64,000 nt of DNA from Sedimenticola hydrogenitrophicus (GTDB lineage: Bacteria; Pseudomonadota; Gammaproteobacteria; Chromatiales; Chromatiaceae). The first letter of the stretch is position 1; each line of letters opens with the position of its first letter. The notes under the pieces are model-generated. The model made no database searches. It worked only from the letters and a program-made list of their open reading frames with translations, and was not told where the DNA came from. The stretch lies in the NCBI RefSeq assembly GCF_029017505.1, contig NZ_JAQGEI010000024.1:1-64000 (forward strand), written 5' to 3'. The translations under genes were made by a program, and so were the position numbers. Below, piece after piece: positions 36,504-47,015 of the stretch.

Positions 36504-36526
36504 GCCGTATTCAACCATGCCCATAT

Positions 36527-36637
36527 TGAATGGCACTGACTCGAATGTAGGCTCAAATGTAGGGTGGGTTAGGCGCGTTGTTTGCGCCGTAACCCACCCT
36601 ACATTGGATACGAATCCGCTTAAGTCAGTGCCATTCA
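36527..36637. repeat. nested palindromic repeats between nifM and clpX
   Basis: Outer arms TGAATGGCACTGACT and complement enclose a TAGGGTGGGTTAGGCGC palindrome; one family inserted into another. Confidence 0.8.
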
Positions 36638-36688
36638 TGCCCGTATTCAAACATGGCAGCGTCACTGCTGCCCGGAGAGGTGAAGCCC

Positions 36689-37972
36689 GTGAGTCAGCTA
36701 AAAGCGCACTGTTCATTCTGTGGTCAGGAGCAGAGTCCGGACCTTCCGCTGATCGCCGGTGAAGAGGGGCACATCTGCGAGGAGTGTGTCCGCCTGGCCT
36801 CCCAGGTGGTCGGCAGCTGGGGACGCAAGCGGGCGGCCGCCAAGCCGTTGCAGAACCTGCTCAAGCCGGTCGAACTCAAGGCGCAACTGGACCGCTATAT
36901 CATCGGTCAGGATCTGGCCAAGGAGACCCTGGCGGTCGCGGTCTATAACCATTTCAAACGGCTGAGCATGGAGCAGGCGGGCCCGAAGATGCCGGTCTGC
37001 AACCCGGATGTGGAGATCGAAAAATCCAACATCCTGCTGCTCGGCCCCTCCGGCACCGGCAAGACCCTGCTGGCCAGTACCCTGGCGCGTATCGTCGGCG
37101 TGCCCATCGTGATTGCCGATGCCACCACCCTGACCCAGGCCGGTTATGTGGGGGATGACGTGGAGAGTATCCTGGCACGCCTGGTGGACAGCGCCGAGGG
37201 TAACCTGGAGCTGGCGGAGTGGGGGATCGTCTACATCGACGAGATCGACAAGCTGGCCCGTGCCGGCGAGTCATCCCACGGCACCCGCGACGTCTCCGGC
37301 GAGGGAGTGCAGCAGGCGTTGCTGAAACTGGTGGAAGGCGCCCGGGTCAAGCTGAGTGCCAACGGGGCGAAGGGGCAGGGGGGCGATCTGCTGCTGGATA
37401 CCCGCCATATCCTGTTCATCGCCGGCGGCGCCTTTGCCGGGATGGAGGGCCTGCTGGAGAAACGCCTGGGCAGCGGTGGCGGGGGGATCGGTTTCCATGC
37501 CGAACCCGCGGCCGCCGGCCCGGGGTATGACCCGTCCTGCCTGTTCGAGCAGGTACAGCCGGACGATCTGCGCCATTTCGGCCTGATTCCCGAGTTCATC
37601 GGCCGCTTTCCCGTCATCACGGCACTGCATGACCTGGATGAGTCGGCGCTGCTGCGGATTCTCACCGAACCGCGCAACGCCCTGATCCGCCAGTACCAGC
37701 GGCTGTTCGAGTACGAGGGGGTCGCGCTGGAGTTTACCGCGGAGGCGTTGCGCCTGATCGCCCGCCAGGCGATCGAACGCGGCACCGGGGCGCGCGGACT
37801 GCGGGCTGTCCTGGAGGGGCTGTTGCGCAGGATCATGTATGAAATACCGTCGATCCCCGGCGTCACCGGGTGCCGGGTGGATGAACAGGTGGTACTGGGA
37901 ACCGGGGAGCCCACCCTTGTCGCGGATCCGGATATCCCCAGGGAGCTGGTCGGGGAGGCCGCGGGGCGCTGA
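36689..37972 (+). CDS. clpX: nif-associated ClpX paralogue
   Basis: 427 residues from GTG 36689 (MSQLKAHCSFCG) behind GGAGAGG; an ATG at 36653 would add 12 residues. It has a zinc-binding domain (Cys8, Cys11, Cys30, Cys33), Walker A GPSGTGKT, Walker B IVYIDEIDK and sensor motifs with GTGARGLR. AAA+ unfoldase that works with ClpP. It follows nifM as in Azotobacter, where the nif ClpX is distinct from the housekeeping one. A role in degrading or remodelling Nif proteins is inference. The core RYF pore region cannot be judged reliably by eye. Confidence 0.92.
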   Translation: MSQLKAHCSFCGQEQSPDLPLIAGEEGHICEECVRLASQVVGSWGRKRAAAKPLQNLLKPVELKAQLDRYIIGQDLAKETLAVAVYNHFKRLSMEQAGPKMPVCNPDVEIEKSNILLLGPSGTGKTLLASTLARIVGVPIVIADATTLTQAGYVGDDVESILARLVDSAEGNLELAEWGIVYIDEIDKLARAGESSHGTRDVSGEGVQQALLKLVEGARVKLSANGAKGQGGDLLLDTRHILFIAGGAFAGMEGLLEKRLGSGGGGIGFHAEPAAAGPGYDPSCLFEQVQPDDLRHFGLIPEFIGRFPVITALHDLDESALLRILTEPRNALIRQYQRLFEYEGVALEFTAEALRLIARQAIERGTGARGLRAVLEGLLRRIMYEIPSIPGVTGCRVDEQVVLGTGEPTLVADPDIPRELVGEAAGR

Positions 37973-38956: not shown

Positions 38957-39031
38957 TTACGACTCCCGGATCGCGGATGCGTAGCCGGTCGGGCGAGCTT
39001 GTAGCACCGTAACCCAACAAAATCCGAGTTC

Positions 39032-39105
39032 GTAGGGTGGGTTAGCGGCGCATAGGCACCCCACTTCCAGACCACGACAATAGCCGGGCGCCGCGTAACC
39101 CACCG
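39032..39105. repeat. TAGGGTGGGTTAGCGGCGC palindromic repeat
   Basis: Right arm GGCGCCGCGTAACCCACCG. Fills part of the 355-bp gap between the kinase gene and the NosL-type operon; the rest holds the FNR-type promoter. Confidence 0.75.
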
Positions 39106-39207
39106 TTTTCCCAACCCGCCGCGACCGCCACAAAAACAGGTCATATGACCTGATTGAAGCGCCCCCCTGTGGCATATCACACGATCAAAAACTCTATATT
39201 TATCAAA

Positions 39208-39241
39208 TTGATGGTTATCAGAAACGATTGACGGTTATCAA
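39208..39241 (+). promoter_or_regulatory. two tandem FNR/Dnr-type boxes
   Basis: TTGATGGTTATCAG (39208-39221) and TTGACGGTTATCAA (39228-39241), each one base from TTGAT-N4-ATCAA and 20 bp apart centre to centre. A TAGATT -10 element at 39265-39270 puts the second box at about -42, the class II position for activation. Confidence 0.75.
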
Positions 39242-39311
39242 TGTCCAGCGGTTTCGCCAGTCGGTAGATTAACCCTCAACCTGTGTTGATGCGGCCACCG
39301 AACCTCCCTCT

Positions 39312-39614
39312 ATGCGTAAGTCAGATCCTCTCCTGTCGCTCTTCGCCCTGTTGGCGGGGCTGTTCCTGTGGACGCTGGCCGGCAGCACGCGCTCCCCGCA
39401 GGTGGCGGCGGAGCGGCTCGACCCTGTCCGGCGGCTGGTGAGCGAGCTGGGCCTGAGCGATCCGGCGCTGTTTACCGAGGCCCGCTACACCCGGCACCTC
39501 TCCCAGGCCGACCTGCACTCGGCCTTCCAGGATCACCCGATGGCGCTGGAGCACTTCCCCAGCGGCTCGCTGCTGGCGCCGCCACGCCCGGGGGCTCACG
39601 GGAGGGGCGAGTGA
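39312..39614 (+). CDS. small exported/membrane-anchored protein, first gene of the NosL-type operon
   Basis: 100 residues with an N-terminal membrane segment (about 7-24) and a hydrophilic periplasmic part ending in Pro/Gly-rich residues. No family recognised. The stop overlaps the start of the permease gene by one base (TGATG), so the two are coupled. It is the first gene behind the FNR-type boxes. Confidence 0.65.
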   Translation: MRKSDPLLSLFALLAGLFLWTLAGSTRSPQVAAERLDPVRRLVSELGLSDPALFTEARYTRHLSQADLHSAFQDHPMALEHFPSGSLLAPPRPGAHGRGE

Positions 39615-40744
39615 TGGGATGGCTGCGGCGCCAGCGCTACCTGCTGGATTTCATCCTCGCCTCGCTGCTGCGGCGCAAGGGCAAGAACCTGGGCCTGCTG
39701 CTGGTCTACAGCCTGATCGTCTTCATGCTCGCCTCGGTGATGCTGTTCACCCATGCCCTGAAGCGGGAGATGGGGCTGGTGCTGCAGGCGTCGCCGGAGA
39801 TCATCCTGCAGCGCATCGAGGCCGGCCGCCATGCCCTGATCCCGGAGGATTATTTGCAAAAGATCGGGCGCCTGCGCGGGGTGACGGCACGCAAGGGGCG
39901 GCTGTGGGGCTATTTCTACGATCCGGCGGTGCGGGCCAACTACACCCTGATGGTGGCGCCGGAGAGGCGGCTGGCGGATAGCGAGGTGATCATCGGCAGC
40001 GCCATCGCCCGCACCCGGGGCATCGGCCCGGGGGACTACCTCACCTTCCGCGCCCACGACGGGGAGGCCTACAGTTTCCGGGTCAGGGAGCTGCTGGCGA
40101 GCGATACGGAGCTGTTCAGCGCCGACCTGGTGCTGATGTCGGAACGCGCCTTCCGGATCAGCCAGGGCGTCACCGAGGGCTGGTACACCGATATCGTGCT
40201 GTCGGTGAGCAACCCCCTGGAGCTGGAGAAGATCGCCGAGAAGCTCACCCTGCGCCTGCCGGACACCCGGCCGATCCTGCGCGAGGAGATCCTGCGCACC
40301 TACGACGCCATCTTCTCCTGGCGCCAGGGGATCCTGTTCGTGCTGCTGCTGGGAGCGATCCTGGCATTTGTCATCTTCGCCTGGGACAAGGCCTCGGGCC
40401 TGAGCGCGGAGGAGCGACGCGAGATCGGCATCCTCAAGGCGGTCGGCTGGGAGACCGGCGATGTGCTGCGGATGAAGTTCTGGGAGGGTGCCATCCTCTC
40501 CCTGATGGCGTTCCTGCTCGGCTACCTGCTGGCCTACCTGCATGTGTTCCACGCCTCGGCCAGCCTGTTCGAACCGGTGCTGAAGGGCTGGGCGGTGCTC
40601 TACCCCGCCTTTCGCCTCACCCCGGTGATCGATGGACTGCAGGTCGCCACGCTGTTTTTCTTCAGCGTGTTTCCCTACGTGGTGGCCACCATCATTCCGA
40701 TCTGGCAGGTGTCGGTGACCGATCCCGATGCGGTGATGAGGTAG
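39614..40744 (+). CDS. ABC transporter permease, FtsX/MacB type
   Basis: 376 residues. One membrane segment near residues 25-45, a large periplasmic domain (about 50-230), then three membrane segments (about 240-262, 295-320, 340-368): the FtsX/LolC plan. The cytoplasmic loop AEERREIGILKAVGWETGDVLRMKF is typical of this class. Such transporters act on periplasmic substrates rather than pumping solutes. Partner ATPase follows four bases later. Context suggests a role in copper-site assembly. Confidence 0.9.
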   Translation: MGWLRRQRYLLDFILASLLRRKGKNLGLLLVYSLIVFMLASVMLFTHALKREMGLVLQASPEIILQRIEAGRHALIPEDYLQKIGRLRGVTARKGRLWGYFYDPAVRANYTLMVAPERRLADSEVIIGSAIARTRGIGPGDYLTFRAHDGEAYSFRVRELLASDTELFSADLVLMSERAFRISQGVTEGWYTDIVLSVSNPLELEKIAEKLTLRLPDTRPILREEILRTYDAIFSWRQGILFVLLLGAILAFVIFAWDKASGLSAEERREIGILKAVGWETGDVLRMKFWEGAILSLMAFLLGYLLAYLHVFHASASLFEPVLKGWAVLYPAFRLTPVIDGLQVATLFFFSVFPYVVATIIPIWQVSVTDPDAVMR

Positions 40745-40748
40745 GCCC

Positions 40749-41426
40749 ATGCGCATTGTCCTGGAGGATGTACACAAGGTGTTCAACCAGGGGCGCCCCA
40801 ACGCCCACGAGGCGATCCGCGGCGTCTCCCTGAGCATCGAGCCGAACCGGGTCACCTGTCTCAAGGGGGCCAGCGGATCGGGCAAGAGCACCCTGCTCTC
40901 CATGATCGGCTGCCTGTCGCGGCCCACCGCGGGGCGTATTCACCTGGGCGAGCGCCTGCTCTCCGGCCTGCCGGAGCGCTTTCTCACCGATATCCGCCGT
41001 CACACCTTCGGCTTCATCTTCCAGCAGTTCAACCTGATCAGCGGCCTGAGCGTGCTGGAGAACATCATGCTGCCGGCCTATCCCCTGGCGCCCGACCACC
41101 GCCAACTCACCGCCACGGCGAGCGCGCTGCTGGACCGCTTCGGCCTGGCGCACAAGGCGCGCAACCCGGTGCAGTGGCTGTCCGGCGGCGAGGCGCAACG
41201 GGTCGCCATCTGCCGCGCCCTGATCAATGATCCGCGGATTCTGATCGCCGACGAGCCGACCGCCAATCTCGACACCCGGCTCTCCCGCGACTTCATGGAA
41301 CAGATCCGCCGGCTGCGCGAGTCCGGCCGGACGGTGCTGATCACCAGCCACGACCCGGTGGTGTTCGACTCACCGGTGGTGGAGCGGGTGATCGAGCTGT
41401 GCGACGGCCGGGTGGTGGGAGGCTGA
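40749..41426 (+). CDS. ABC transporter ATPase, LolD/MacB type
   Basis: 225 residues with Walker A GASGSGKST, Q-loop FQQFNLIS, signature LSGGEAQRVAICRA and Walker B ILIADEPTANLD. It energises the preceding FtsX-type permease. Adjacent genes are two bases (next) and four bases (previous) away. Confidence 0.93.
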   Translation: MRIVLEDVHKVFNQGRPNAHEAIRGVSLSIEPNRVTCLKGASGSGKSTLLSMIGCLSRPTAGRIHLGERLLSGLPERFLTDIRRHTFGFIFQQFNLISGLSVLENIMLPAYPLAPDHRQLTATASALLDRFGLAHKARNPVQWLSGGEAQRVAICRALINDPRILIADEPTANLDTRLSRDFMEQIRRLRESGRTVLITSHDPVVFDSPVVERVIELCDGRVVGG

Positions 41427-41428
41427 CC

Positions 41429-42436
41429 ATGCTGCTCAACCCGGCCATCATGGCGCTGATCCTGGTCTCCGGCGTGGTGCTGTCGATGCTGCTGCTCGCC
41501 GCCGGTTTCGCCATTCAACTGCTGCGCCACTGGGATATCAGCAGCGGCAGCGAACGGCAACTGCGGCTGGAGCGGCGTACCTACCTGATCTCCACCCTGT
41601 TGGCCTGGGCGTTCGCCGCCGAGCTGGTGTCGCTGCTGCTGTTCGTCTACAACGCCGAGGCGATGTCGGGCCAGTTTGTCGGCGCCATGTGCGCCACCGG
41701 GGTGTTGAACGTCAATGCCTGGGGCTGGCCGACGCTGCTGCTGAAGATCGCCATTTTCTTCAGCGGCGCCAGCTGGCTGATCCTGAATGCGCTGGACAAC
41801 CGCGGCTATGACTACCCGCTGGTCCGCCTCAAGTACCGCCTGCTGTTGCTGATCGTGCCCCTGGTGGCAGTGGAGAGCGGGCTGCAGCTGCGCTATTTCC
41901 TGGAACTGCGCCCGGATGTCATCACCTCCTGTTGCGGCTCGCTGTTCTCCGCCAATGCACGGGGCGTGGCCGGGGAGGTGGCCGCGCTCTCCCCTGCGCT
42001 GGCGGTGTGGGGCCTGGCGATGTCCGGGGTGCTGGTGCTCGCCGCCGGCCTGCGCTTCCAGCGCACCCGCCGCGGTGGTCCGCTGTTCGGCCTGCTGGCG
42101 CTGCTGGCGTTCGGCATCGCCCTGGCGGCCATCGTGTCGGTGATCTCCCCCTACATCTACGCCCACCCCGAGCATCACTGCCCGTTCTGCATCCTCAAGT
42201 CCGGGCACGGCTTTGCCGGCTATCTGCTCTATATCCCGCTGTTCGCCGCCACCGCCTGGGCCCTGGGGGTGGCGGTGGTGGCGCCCTGGCGGCACATCCC
42301 CAGCCTGGACGCGGCGGTGGCGGACGGCGCGAGCCGGCTGGTGCGCCGCTCGCTGGGCATGTTCCTGCTGTTCTATCTGGCGGCCGGCTGGTTCGTCTAC
42401 AGCTCGCCCCTGGTGATGCAGGGGGTGTGGTGGTGA
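41429..42436 (+). CDS. polytopic membrane protein with CC and CxxC motifs
   Basis: 335 residues with about eight membrane segments. Possible metal or redox ligands are the Cys pair in TSCCGSLF (about 170) and EHHCPFCILKSGH (about 251-263), both near membrane boundaries. No characterised family recognised. The following gene overlaps it by 4 bp (GTGA). The cysteines and the thioredoxin-like partner suggest a thiol or copper relay across the membrane; this is inference. Confidence 0.75.
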   Translation: MLLNPAIMALILVSGVVLSMLLLAAGFAIQLLRHWDISSGSERQLRLERRTYLISTLLAWAFAAELVSLLLFVYNAEAMSGQFVGAMCATGVLNVNAWGWPTLLLKIAIFFSGASWLILNALDNRGYDYPLVRLKYRLLLLIVPLVAVESGLQLRYFLELRPDVITSCCGSLFSANARGVAGEVAALSPALAVWGLAMSGVLVLAAGLRFQRTRRGGPLFGLLALLAFGIALAAIVSVISPYIYAHPEHHCPFCILKSGHGFAGYLLYIPLFAATAWALGVAVVAPWRHIPSLDAAVADGASRLVRRSLGMFLLFYLAAGWFVYSSPLVMQGVWW

Positions 42437-42921
42437 CGCGCTGGTTGCCGTGGCTGCTGTGGCCGCTGTTGCTGACCGCCTGTGATGCCACGGACCGCCC
42501 ACTGGCTATCGGACAGGAGGTGCCCGCTGTCGATCTGGTGCGGTTCGCGGGAGGGACCGTGCAGTTTCCGGTTGCCTATCGGGGGCGCGTGCTGCTGATC
42601 CATTTTTGGGCCGACTGGTGTGCGCTCTGCCGGGAGGAGCTGCAGGAATCCGAACCGCTCTACCGGCGCTACCGCGACCGGGGGCTGGAGGTCCTAGCCA
42701 TCAATCTGCAGCAGCCTCGTGAAACGGTCCGCTCCTACTTGGCAGGTCTGGATATCAGTTACCCGGTATTGCTCGATAGCGGTGGCGAAATGTCCAGGCG
42801 CTACGGCGTCTCGGCGCTGCCGGTTATCTATCTCCTCGACCGGCGTGGCCGATTGCATGCGCGGATGCTGGGTGGCGCGTCCCCGGATCAGCTGGAACGA
42901 CTCGTCAGGAGTCTGCTGTAA
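42433..42921 (+). CDS. TlpA-like thioredoxin lipoprotein
   Basis: 162 residues from GTG 42433. A signal peptide with lipobox LLTAC (Cys17) is followed by a thioredoxin fold with the active site WADWCALC and a cis-Pro SALPVIY. It would sit in the periplasm, membrane-attached, and reduce cysteine pairs of copper- or haem-carrying partners, such as the two NosL-type proteins encoded next. Confidence 0.9.
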   Translation: MTRWLPWLLWPLLLTACDATDRPLAIGQEVPAVDLVRFAGGTVQFPVAYRGRVLLIHFWADWCALCREELQESEPLYRRYRDRGLEVLAINLQQPRETVRSYLAGLDISYPVLLDSGGEMSRRYGVSALPVIYLLDRRGRLHARMLGGASPDQLERLVRSLL

Positions 42922-43008
42922 ACGTATCAAGGGCCGGTCCGACCTGCGGTTTGGGTCCGGCGTTGTCAGATAACACCGCAGAGTTAGCGATTGATAGGGA
43001 GAGACGTA

Positions 43009-43689
43009 ATGTGTGAAGAGAAGATGCTGGATCGACGTGGCGTGTTGAAACTGCTGGCGGTGGCCGGTCTCGGCAGCCTGGCGGGGCCGGTGGTTGCCGG
43101 TCCCGGTGTCGGCGCCATGGTGCCGGGCAAAGGTTGGGTGAAAGCGTCCGGCGAGGCGTGTCAGGGGGACGGCACGCCGCTGCAGTTTATCCCGAAGAGG
43201 GCGCCGGATGCCGATCCGCTGGAGAACGAACTGGAGAAGTATCCCGCCTGCCCCTACTGCGGGATGAACCGCACCCAATGGCAGCACAGTCGCCACCTGG
43301 TCCAATACGACGACGACCTGGTGGACGGCACCTGCTCCATCCACTGCCTGGCCATCAGCCTGTCGCTCAATCTGGATCGCGGTCCCAAGGCGATCTATGC
43401 CGCTGATTTTGGTGCGGCCGATAAAGTCAAACCGTTGGTCAATGTGGATACGGCGACTTATCTGCTCGGCTCAAAACTCAAGGGCACCATGACTGCGAGT
43501 AGCAAGATGGCATTCGCTTCGGCGGAGGCGGCGCGCGCGGCCCAGGCGGAGCAGGGCGGGGAGTTGACCTCGTTCGACGAAGGGCTGAAGGCGGCCTACC
43601 TTGGCATGGCGCAGGATACGCTGATGATTCGCAAGCGCCGGGCAGAGAAAGTCAGGAAGATGATGCAGATGAAAAAGAGTGGCGGCTGA
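43009..43689 (+). CDS. NosL-family protein with Tat-type signal
   Basis: 226 residues from ATG 43009 (GGGAGAG upstream). The N terminus has DRRGVLKLLAVAGLG, a twin-arginine-like export signal. The NosL motif CPYCGMNR is at about residues 82-89, followed by a CSIHC pair (about 110-114) that could complete a copper site. NosL proteins are Cu(I) chaperones for nitrous oxide reductase. The basic tail after about residue 190 (IRKRRAEKVRKMMQMKK) is unusual. Confidence 0.82.
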   Translation: MCEEKMLDRRGVLKLLAVAGLGSLAGPVVAGPGVGAMVPGKGWVKASGEACQGDGTPLQFIPKRAPDADPLENELEKYPACPYCGMNRTQWQHSRHLVQYDDDLVDGTCSIHCLAISLSLNLDRGPKAIYAADFGAADKVKPLVNVDTATYLLGSKLKGTMTASSKMAFASAEAARAAQAEQGGELTSFDEGLKAAYLGMAQDTLMIRKRRAEKVRKMMQMKKSGG

Positions 43690-43753
43690 AGCGTAAGCCC
43701 GCGGCGGCCGGTTGTGACCGGCTGCCGCGCTAACCGGTATGTGGGGAAGTGAC

Positions 43754-44248
43754 ATGAAGTGGACGTCGAGAATTCTGGTAAGCGTGCTCCTGCTGCTGGG
43801 TGTGCCGCCCGTGTTGTCGGGGCCGGTGGAGATAGCGCCGCCCCGGGCGGACGACACCTGCCCGGTGTGCGGCATGTTCGTCGCCAAGTATCCGGCCTGG
43901 GTGGCCAGCGTGCGCTATCGCGACGGCCACCTGCACCATTTCGATGGCGCCAAGGACCTGTTCAAGTATCTGCTGGACCTGGCACGCTGGGCACCGGGAC
44001 ACCGCAGCGAGGAGATCGACACCATCGGTGTGACCGAGTACTACACCCTGGGTCGCATCGATGCCGGGTCGGCCTGGTTCGTGATCGGCTCGGACGTGCT
44101 CGGTCCCATGGGGCACGAGCTGATCCCGCTGGAGACCCGGGAGGACGCCGAGGAGTTCCTGCGTGATCACCGCGGGGTTAGGATCCTGCGCCGGAACGAG
44201 GTGACGGCGGAGCTGCTGGAGAGGCTTGACCACGGGGTGTTCGAGTAG
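43754..44248 (+). CDS. nosL: NosL, copper chaperone-like protein
   Basis: 164 residues from ATG 43754 with GGGGAAG upstream. Signal peptide (about 1-22), then TCPVCGMFVAKYP, the Cu(I)-binding NosL motif, and a conserved FDGAKDLFKYLLD segment. It lacks an obvious lipobox, unlike many NosL. Last gene of the operon; it converges on the PilJ-N-type gene. Supports a copper-delivery function for the whole set. Confidence 0.88.
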   Translation: MKWTSRILVSVLLLLGVPPVLSGPVEIAPPRADDTCPVCGMFVAKYPAWVASVRYRDGHLHHFDGAKDLFKYLLDLARWAPGHRSEEIDTIGVTEYYTLGRIDAGSAWFVIGSDVLGPMGHELIPLETREDAEEFLRDHRGVRILRRNEVTAELLERLDHGVFE

Positions 44249-44300: not shown

Positions 44301-45086
44301 CTACCGGGGCAGGGCGGCGTAGAGCCCGGTCACCTCGTTCATCTGCAGCAGGATCTTGTCCAGCATGCGCACCGCCAGCCCCGGCACGAACTCGTTCTCG
44401 CCCATGCGGTTGCTCAGGTTGTAGAGGTCCCAGTTCTGTCTCACCTGGGCGAGGATCCGGCCGATCTCCGGGGTGTTCTCGTTGGCGTTGCTCAGCTCCT
44501 GCAGGGCGTTGTCGAACTGCTCGGTGGCGGTCCGGTAGTCCTGGCGGTAGAGCTCATGGTCGAACTTCCAGCTCATCAGCATGTAGAGGTTGCCCATGCG
44601 CTGGCTGAGCATGCGCTGGCGGCCGGCGATATTGACCAGGTGGCCCTGCTGGGTGCCGGACTGGTCGGCCAGGATCAGCACCACCTGGTGGGCGGCCGCC
44701 AGCAGCTGTTCGGCATTGGCCCTCAGCTCCTCGGCCTTCTCCCGCTGTACCGGTCCGCTGGCGATGGTCTTGACCGGTTTCCAGAGCTTCTCCACCAGGG
44801 CGAGTCCACGCTGGGTCTCCGGGTCCTGGCTGAACTCCTTGAGCATGTTGAGCTGCTGTTCGAACAGGATGATCGACCCCTTGAGGTGACCCTTGGCCAC
44901 CCGGTAGCGGACATCCTGTCCCATCTGCAGGTAGGACTTGACGATGCGCTGGCTGAGCATACGCTGGCGCCCGGCGATATTGATCGCCTCGGCCAGGTTG
45001 ATCTCCGTGGCGGCCTGGGCCAGCGGCAGCTGGCACAGCAGGATCAGCAGTCCGTATACCACGGTCCGTACGCCTTTCATGATCAT
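44301..45086 (-). CDS. stand-alone PilJ/NarX-type sensor domain protein
   Basis: 261 residues: signal peptide (about 1-26) and two copies of the INIAGRQRMLSQR helix motif (about residues 36-48 and 152-164), characteristic of type IV pili methyl-accepting N-terminal and NarX nitrate-sensing domains. No kinase, HAMP or methyl-accepting part follows, so it would be a periplasmic ligand-binding protein. Its place beside the NosL-type operon makes a nitrogen-oxide ligand plausible. Start ATG 45086, with ATG 45080 as alternative. Confidence 0.82.
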   Translation of the reverse strand: MIMKGVRTVVYGLLILLCQLPLAQAATEINLAEAINIAGRQRMLSQRIVKSYLQMGQDVRYRVAKGHLKGSIILFEQQLNMLKEFSQDPETQRGLALVEKLWKPVKTIASGPVQREKAEELRANAEQLLAAAHQVVLILADQSGTQQGHLVNIAGRQRMLSQRMGNLYMLMSWKFDHELYRQDYRTATEQFDNALQELSNANENTPEIGRILAQVRQNWDLYNLSNRMGENEFVPGLAVRMLDKILLQMNEVTGLYAALPR

Positions 45087-46764: not shown

Positions 46765-46940
46765 GTAGGGTGGGTTAGGCGCGCCCTGCGCAGGGGGTGG
46801 CCGTTTGCATGGTACCGTACGCGCACCGTAACCCACCGTTTGGCAGGTTGAGGTGGATTGAAAAAACGGTGGGTTACGCGGCGCCCGGGTATTGTCGTAG
46901 TCTCAAAGCGGGGTGCCTGTGCGCCGCTAACCCACCCTAC
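46765..46940. repeat. TAGGGTGGGTTAGGCGC palindromic repeat pair
   Basis: Two back-to-back arms (GTAGGGTGGGTTAGGCGC ... GCCGCTAACCCACCCTAC) fill the glyA-nrdR gap. Confidence 0.75.
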
Positions 46941-47015
46941 GCAACCGGGCAAATCTGCAATCAATGGCCCAGGGCCAAGTTTTTCATGCGCTTTCTGGAA
47001 AGATCAGGTTAAATC

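Follow-up and report, generated by a model that had tools for sequence, protein, structure and literature searches.

Introduction

The described system closest in logic to the operon reported here is NosDFYL, in which an ATP-binding cassette (ABC) ATPase, a permease and a NosL-family copper chaperone act in periplasmic metal transfer. In NosL, the CXM motif and its methionine are likely Cu(I) ligands, one other methionine is conserved, and CXXCXM is the clade II form of the motif, according to the accessible part of one report (PMC6530538). The operon studied here consists of seven plus-strand genes at 39312-44248 of a 64,000-nucleotide stretch of Sedimenticola hydrogenitrophicus DNA (hereafter the window; contig C24 of a 5.13 Mb genome). 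It shares the ATPase, permease and NosL components, but its permease is FtsX-type and not an ABC-2-type NosY, and it encodes two NosLs of separate clades, a membrane protein with eight predicted transmembrane (TM) helices and conserved Cys/His residues (the 8-TM protein), and a thioredoxin-fold partner. The marks of a NosDFYL system, namely nos neighbours, an ABC-2-type NosY permease and occurrence with NosZ, the nitrous oxide (N2O) reductase, were not found for it: no NosD or NosY was found beside operon loci, many carriers have no NosZ, and the operon coexists with two NosDFYL sets in its own genome. We report that the operon is a conserved module, and we give about an even chance to the reading that it is an envelope Cu(I)-transfer and cuproprotein-maturation machine with varying clients, driven by a MacB/FtsX-type ABC transporter.

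Three other described systems share parts with it. LolCDE and MacB (type VII, mechanotransmission ABC transporters) likewise combine an FtsX-type permease with an ATPase of the FtsE/LolD/MacB group, but the operon has only one permease gene, unlike LolCDE, and no MacA-like gene, unlike MacB. As far as the accessible text of PMC11481552 goes, the nearest precedent found in which a split MacB-type transporter is paired with a metal-binding protein of the periplasm is PA4063-PA4066 of Pseudomonas aeruginosa (with ZrgA relatives in Vibrio), which is Zur-controlled and tied to zinc and cobalt; a separate ATPase and a MacB-fold permease are co-encoded there with that protein, and the system is, as a further likeness, metal-responsive. 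Compared by description only, it differs in that the same text mentions no NosL, TlpA or 8-TM partner for it. The SCO1/SenC-PCuAC-TlpA set for oxidase copper sites resembles the operon in that SCO1 (in the deltas) or TlpA (in Pseudomonadota) is the usual thioredoxin-fold neighbour and that PCuAC and COX genes occur at single operon loci, but the accessible part of a review (PMC7558416) mentions no ABC transporter or NosL for that set.

Results

The seven genes of the operon are as follows.

39312..39614, plus strand: orf100, 100 aa, single N-terminal TM helix by hydropathy
39614..40744, plus strand: FtsX/MacB-type ABC permease, 376 aa
40749..41426, plus strand: ABC ATPase of the FtsE/LolD/MacB group, 225 aa
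41429..42436, plus strand: 8-TM protein, of a family without a Pfam model, 335 aa
42433..42921, plus strand: TlpA/ResA-like thioredoxin-fold lipoprotein, 162 aa, GTG start
43009..43689, plus strand: NosL1, NosL family, signal resembling the twin-arginine translocation (Tat) type, 226 aa
43754..44248, plus strand: NosL2, NosL family with signal peptide, assigned by Pfam and alignment

All the elements listed in a preliminary description of this DNA (FNR-type boxes, FtsX permease, ATPase, a protein with TSCC and HCPFC motifs, TlpA-like lipoprotein and two NosL proteins) were present. Its statement that the seven genes are tightly spaced is true of five of them only, because the genes for NosL1 and NosL2 are set off from the preceding gene by 87 and 64 nt; genes 1-5 overlap or lie at most 4 nt apart. 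The NosL2 open reading frame (ORF) opens also at 43739, and 43754 was preferred by eye since GGGGAAG is better placed there.

Searching with the 8-TM protein found 65 loci, and 27 further loci brought the set to 92, for which partners up to 8 kb from the 8-TM gene were counted; these counts include loci ending at contig ends and near-copies. The 65 loci span Sedimenticola, Thiodiazotropha, tubeworm symbionts, Competibacter, Desulfuromonadia (Geobacter and others) and Syntrophobacteraceae, among others, and include one Nitrospirae and one Acidobacteria metagenome-assembled genome; Sedimenticola selenatireducens DSM 17993 has the operon at L009. As unrelated phyla share this gene set, it lies beyond chance. 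The usual order is orf100-ftsX-ATPase-8TM-tlpA-(DsbD_2)-nosL1-nosL2 in gammaproteobacteria and nosL1-nosL2-orf100-ftsX-ATPase-8TM in the deltas. Among the 92 loci, orf100 was recognised in 81, ftsX in 86, the ATPase in 87, nosL2 in 76, nosL1 in 53 and both NosLs in 52, and no module partner gene turned up in 40 control stretches of 17 kb taken from module-carrying genomes. As 33 of these controls came from the class of the Geobacteraceae genome G076 and were thus unlike the test loci, a lineage-matched set was added. These results confirmed that the observed operon is real and a conserved module.

The 8-TM protein shares 99% identity with that of Sedimenticola hydrogenitrophicus SB48. It is encoded in 98 of 194 genomes sampled from the class of G076 (the class sample) and in 7 of 397 Pseudomonadota genomes, our own included. 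Carriage on plasmids was rejected, as 72,556 plasmid records held no match. The operon's description was not recognised in the open literature on NosL with FtsX, SCO1, TlpA, DsbD, P1B or MacB, a scope outside which subscription papers fall. A distant version of the module (L098, in G094; 8-TM 109 bits, NosL 82.9 bits, with a gene of the resistance-nodulation-division (RND) type nearby) may mark the edge of the family. Two orf100-ftsX-ATPase-8TM copies (L105, L117) had no NosL found nearby, and in L105 the ATPase and 8-TM genes are separated by an ORF that has two CxxCH motifs.

The two NosL proteins scored 53.7 bits (NosL1) and 96.1 bits (NosL2) against PF05573, with a cut-off of 24. Aligned with the clade I NosL of the same genome, NosL1 showed C81xxC84-G-M86 and the second conserved methionine M161, and NosL2 showed C41xxC44-G-M46 and M124. 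An additional CSxHC motif of NosL1 (C109, S110, H112, C113) was kept in 42/42 rows. No lipobox was seen by eye in either protein, so that the lipid anchor of the NosL family was not found. The earlier claim of one Tat-type NosL agrees with the DRRGVLK at the start of NosL1 but does not extend to the whole family, where Tat-like signals were seen by eye in some members only. In a tree of 44 rows, NosL1 (20) and NosL2 (20) each stood on their own side of a branch with support 100/98. The NosLs of nos clusters (three clade I, one clade II) stood apart from both, and their placement is unsure because of long branches. The pair had been called unusual; since both proteins were recognised in 52/92 loci and each forms its own clade, it is in fact usual for this system.

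The 8-TM protein had no match at E<=0.01 in Pfam or NCBIfam, and a PHROGs search gave one match at chance level. A hidden relative was rejected in both places where it was sought: the family profile against PDB sequences was empty at E<=10, and 40 members gave scattered weak Pfam matches, no family matching more than 3 of them. Eight helices emerged from hydropathy averaged over 40 homologues. The cysteines of the motifs TSCC (166-169) and HCPFC (250-254) were kept in 63-65 of 64-65 aligned homologues; C88, C168 and C169 were kept in 65/65 rows, H249 and C251 in 64/64, C254 in 63/64 and H250 in 62/64. The loops that hold the conserved Cys/His residues average 0.1, 0.9 and 0.8 Lys+Arg, whereas those on the opposite side average 4.3, 2.1 and 3.8, with a fourth, short one at 0.9, after which the next helix begins with more Lys/Arg. 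From this hydropathy and these counts, the conserved Cys/His set is therefore predicted to face the periplasm.

The permease matched FtsX (PF02687, 30.9 bits) as its sole Pfam family. Its hydropathy peaks lie near 26-44, 239-257, 294-312 and 345-363, with a domain of about 190 residues between the first and second. Among PDB sequences it matched LolC (22.7 bits), YtrF (19.1) and MacB (14.9), and its 28.5 bits against the lolCE equivalog are far below the cut-off of 362.45. The ATPase matched PF00005 with 105.5 bits, and its best NCBIfam matches were FtsE (170.5), MacB (170.3) and LolD (166.8), all below the equivalog cut-offs; it can thus be assigned to the FtsE/LolD/MacB group of type VII ABC transporters. 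No MacA-like adaptor was found among the seven genes. orf100 had no Pfam or NCBIfam match at E<=0.01 and carries the conserved segment TxAxYTRHxxxxDxxxxFQxxPxxxxHFPxG. The TlpA-like protein matched PF00578 (70.4 bits), with a WCALC active site and the lipobox LTAC (Cys17).

The genome of the window holds a clade I nosRZDFYL cluster on contig C3 (L005) and a clade II nosZ cluster with nosD- and nosFY-like genes and a NosL on contig C41 (L006/L182), nosZ being assigned by TIGR04246 and the other nos names by eye. Four NosL-family matches exceeded the cut-off in this genome, two in the operon, one on C3 and one on C41. The proposal that the operon works instead of NosDFY therefore does not hold, as the genome has two nosDFYL sets of its own elsewhere and the operon is not a stand-in for them. 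With clade I queries from the same genome, NosZ, NosD and NosY were found within 8 kb at none of the 92 loci. Across the class sample, NosZ was found in 1/194 genomes, of which 98 carry the 8-TM gene, so that neither a gene order beside nosZ nor a general tie to N2O reductase was borne out, and NosZ was rejected as client in general. NosL matched in 107/194 of these genomes (105 over cut-off): in 96/98 with the 8-TM gene versus 11/96 without it. In 20 genomes chosen because a single contig holds both, 2.5-3.2 kb separate the 8-TM gene from the start of the best NosL match; in G500, G571, G522, G640 and G641 the two lie on different contigs. NosL in the class sample thus goes with this module and not with NosZ. 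A search of 51 carrier entries, among which two genomes appear twice, found full-length NosZ in 22; with one exception these belong to the Sedimenticola/Thiodiazotropha/tubeworm-symbiont side, where NosZ and the 8-TM gene co-occur.

Upstream of the operon lie the following elements, the boxes being matches to the FNR consensus TTGATNNNNATCAA.

39208-39221, plus strand: FNR-type box 1, TTGATGGTTATCAG, 1 mismatch to TTGATNNNNATCAA
39228-39241, plus strand: FNR-type box 2, TTGACGGTTATCAA, 1 mismatch to TTGATNNNNATCAA, 20 bp after box 1
39265-39270, plus strand: -10-like TAGATT, 4/6 to TATAAT by eye, which puts box 2 near -41.5

A sigma-70 scan reported no promoter at TAGATT, because it also requires a -35. 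The window holds 4 matches to the FNR consensus at <=1 mismatch versus 0.91 expected, and 2 of 100 shuffles reached 4. Conservation was counted at <=2 mismatches and <=150 bp upstream, with the expectation taken from shuffles, and 9/65 loci were left out for missing genes or less than 150 bp of upstream DNA. A box was present in 21/24 Sedimenticola/Thiodiazotropha-type loci (3.3 expected), many of which are near relatives, the groups having been defined once the box-carrying loci were known; at <=1 mismatch it was present in only 5 of these 24. None of 4 Competibacter loci had a box. FNR-type control, as first proposed, thus stood within the Sedimenticola/Thiodiazotropha group but not elsewhere (2/28 in the delta/other loci), and a general FNR link was rejected, boxes being at chance level outside the Sedimenticola group. 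From the distribution of boxes, such control looks like a trait of this one lineage.

In the same genome, 1-mismatch boxes lie about 115 bp before nosR (L005 16608-16621) and about 95 bp before the clade II nosZ (L182 4277-4290). By number these are weak (L005, 1 match vs 0.24 expected; L182, 6 at <=2 mismatches vs 1.5), and 42/200 shuffles of the 19-kb nos stretch gave at least 1 match, so these boxes are only suggestive. Their placement makes joint low-oxygen expression with the operon plausible.

Neighbouring genes were compared with lineage-matched controls (38 Pseudomonadota loci vs 27, and 54 delta/other loci vs 33), using queries taken from the test loci themselves, which favours matches there. 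In Pseudomonadota, TlpA was found at 34/38 loci vs 0/27 controls (p=2e-14) and DsbD_2 at 23/38 vs 0/27 (p=7e-8), while CusA showed 4/38 vs 3/27 (p=0.69) and neither SCO1 nor COX1 was found at loci or controls (0/38 vs 0/27 each). Among the delta/other loci, SCO1 was found at 15/54 vs 1/33 (p=0.003; 14 if L112 is dropped), TlpA at 5/54 vs 0/33 (p=0.09), CusA at 3/54 vs 1/33 (p=0.51), COX1 at 2/54 vs 0/33 (p=0.38) and PCuAC at 1/54 vs 0/33; DsbD_2 and P1B-ATPase were found at 0/54 loci. With the matched controls, TlpA and DsbD_2 in Pseudomonadota and SCO1 in the deltas thus gained support, and CusA and P1B-ATPase were left unsupported.

Single loci showed further copper-related neighbours. L094 and L097 have an HMA-type P1B-ATPase, which in L097 was assigned by Pfam and lies with a DsbD_2-like match between tlpA and nosL1. 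PCuAC and SCO1, both confirmed by Pfam, follow directly downstream in L107, and in L109 the operon is divergent from SCO1-COX1. L112 (G609) has on one strand nosL1-nosL2-orf100-ftsX-ATPase-8TM, a phosphotransferase-family gene, a SCO-like gene, COX1, COX2 and a UbiA-type gene; the SCO-like gene had no Pfam SCO match and its SCO assignment was withdrawn. CusA-type RND genes were found within 8 kb at 7/92 loci, and in L053 CusBA immediately precedes the operon in the same orientation. A fusion of cytochrome c and periplasmic binding domains occurs together with a SCO-like gene within 8 kb at 9/92 loci (L046, L056, L066, L101, L104, L108, L110, L113, L114; Peripla_BP_6 by Pfam in L056) and also in control L151; the cytochrome c-Peripla_BP fusion was found at 9/54 delta/other loci vs 1/33 controls (p=0.05), and in L113 and L114 the SCO-like and fusion genes lie within the cluster.

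Among candidate client enzymes, COX1 was found in 34/38 carriers and Cu-oxidase_3 in 17/38. G086 gave only a weak Cu-oxidase_3 match among NosZ, COX1 and Cu-oxidase_3. The genome of the window has five COX1 matches, by eye including aa3- and cbb3-type loci.

Discussion

The operon had been proposed to be a membrane copper machine, and this stood insofar as it is a separate operon with an FtsX-type transporter and probably handles copper; the NosZ-specific role did not. In the Cu(I)-transfer machine that we envisage, Cu(I) would reach the periplasm via a P1B-ATPase, for which a few relatives have a gene next to the operon, and would be bound there by NosL1 and NosL2. The FtsX-type permease and the ATPase, with the 8-TM protein and orf100, would spend ATP on a conformational change on the periplasmic side, and copper at Cys/Met/His sites would be handed on or released to a client, the cysteines being kept reduced by TlpA, SCO1 or DsbD_2-type partners. 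There would be no single fixed client; for some Desulfuromonadia, the leading candidate is copper sites of cytochrome c oxidase type. The FNR-type promoter of Sedimenticola would provide additional copper at low oxygen for the two NosZ enzymes and the oxidases. We infer copper as the cargo, as well as the direction of transfer, the power stroke and the clients; the sequences themselves show the gene set and its conservation, the kinship to NosL, the conserved Cys/His residues, the neighbours and the many carriers that lack NosZ. In favour of the reading stand the spread of the module across phyla, the tracking of the 8-TM gene by NosL, the Cu(I)-linked motifs of both NosLs, the position of the conserved Cys/His residues in loops predicted to be periplasmic, and the partners and neighbours described above.

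Several results weigh against this Cu(I)-transfer reading. Partners vary by lineage, as SCO1 was found at 0/38 Pseudomonadota loci and DsbD_2 at 0/54 others. TlpA or SCO was unrecognised at 38/92 loci (34 of them delta/other, some ended by contig edges), and P1B-ATPase, at 3/38 Pseudomonadota loci vs 1/27 controls (p=0.45), is unsupported. COX1 adjacency is rare (2/92 loci, plus G630 and G533 by coordinates), and PCuAC lies beside 1/92. The excess of COX1 in class-sample carriers, which favours the reading (85/98 vs 62/96 non-carriers; odds ratio 3.6, p=4e-4), ignores shared ancestry, and 13/98 carriers had no COX1 match. Boxes in the delta/other loci were at chance level (2/28 vs 2.3 expected). 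When NosZ, COX1 and Cu-oxidase_3 were searched, the carriers G076, G081 and G083 matched none of the three; for these enzymes they are thus carriers without a periplasmic copper enzyme, the finding that the preliminary description had named as counting against its proposal, and the operon is therefore not simply a helper of one of them.

The main rival is copper extraction or tolerance, in which the ABC machine would strip Cu(I) from periplasmic or membrane sites and load it onto NosL carriers that remove it, chiefly in anoxia, where Cu(I) is the prevailing form. The CusA-type genes near 7/92 loci, with the same-strand CusBA of L053, the carriers that matched none of the three enzymes and the FNR-type control in Sedimenticola fit with it, as does the high copper sensitivity of cusFCBA mutants under anaerobic conditions, stated in the accessible part of a review (PMC7558416). 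However, CusA was no commoner at the loci than in controls (4/38 vs 3/27; 3/54 vs 1/33), on which ground efflux was dropped as the favoured reading, and the presence of SCO1, PCuAC and oxidase genes next to some loci speaks for delivery, so we regard tolerance as unlikely, though deserving attention. FtsX-type transporters handle varied cargo, and this bears on a cargo other than copper: the operon might be a thiol-redox machine or serve another cofactor or metal (haem, mercury, arsenic, lipoprotein), its NosL-fold proteins binding something else. TlpA and DsbD_2, both of thiol-redox type, are the most regular Pseudomonadota neighbours; PA4063-PA4066 has been tied to pyochelin-cobalt export (PMC11481552) and the NosL fold likened to MerB (PMC8261052), as far as the accessible text of both goes. 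Yet both NosLs keep the CxxCGM and second methionine of Cu(I)-binding NosL, and SCO1, P1B-ATPase and PCuAC are copper proteins, which makes a non-copper role quite doubtful.

That the operon serves NosZ only, standing in for NosDFY in its maturation, appears very improbable. The organism does have two nosZ genes with FNR-type boxes before both nos operons, weakly above chance, and full-length NosZ was found in those 22/51 carrier entries, nearly all on the Sedimenticola/Thiodiazotropha/tubeworm-symbiont side. Against this stand the two nosDFYL sets of the same genome, the single NosZ-positive genome among 194 where 98 carry the system, the lack of any nos gene beside the 92 loci, and four NosZ-positive relatives without an 8-TM match (G010, G014, G018, G030). 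A bolder form of the Cu(I)-transfer reading, to which we give somewhat less than an even chance, is a NosZ-independent machine in which a mechanotransmission-type ABC transporter and a new 8-TM Cys/His family would move Cu(I) between a dedicated NosL pair and periplasmic clients; the module would then be the main home of NosL in Desulfuromonadia, and NosDFYL would be just one of the systems that use the NosL fold.

NosL takes its name from nitrous oxide reductase, and in about half of the class-sample genomes it accompanies this module instead. As these genomes, one excepted, have no NosZ match, a NosL match there should not be taken for a sign of N2O reduction. Many of the bacteria that own the module live in oxygen-poor places. 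If the copper reading is true, an ATP-driven step would be added to periplasmic copper supply, and a new Cys/His membrane family would be present in relatives of metal reducers, sulphur oxidisers and animal symbionts.

Other features near the operon

A 103-nt inverted repeat flanks the region, with arms at 39024-39126 and 46846-46948 that are 85% complementary, one arm lying directly upstream of the operon; it resembles a dispersed intergenic repeat. Similar-looking sequence at about 36520-36700 was seen by eye only and was absent from the repeat search output. The gene directly after the operon, on the opposite strand (44301-45086, minus), encodes a protein with two INxAGRQRMLSQR repeats, which are reminiscent of PilJ-type sensor segments.

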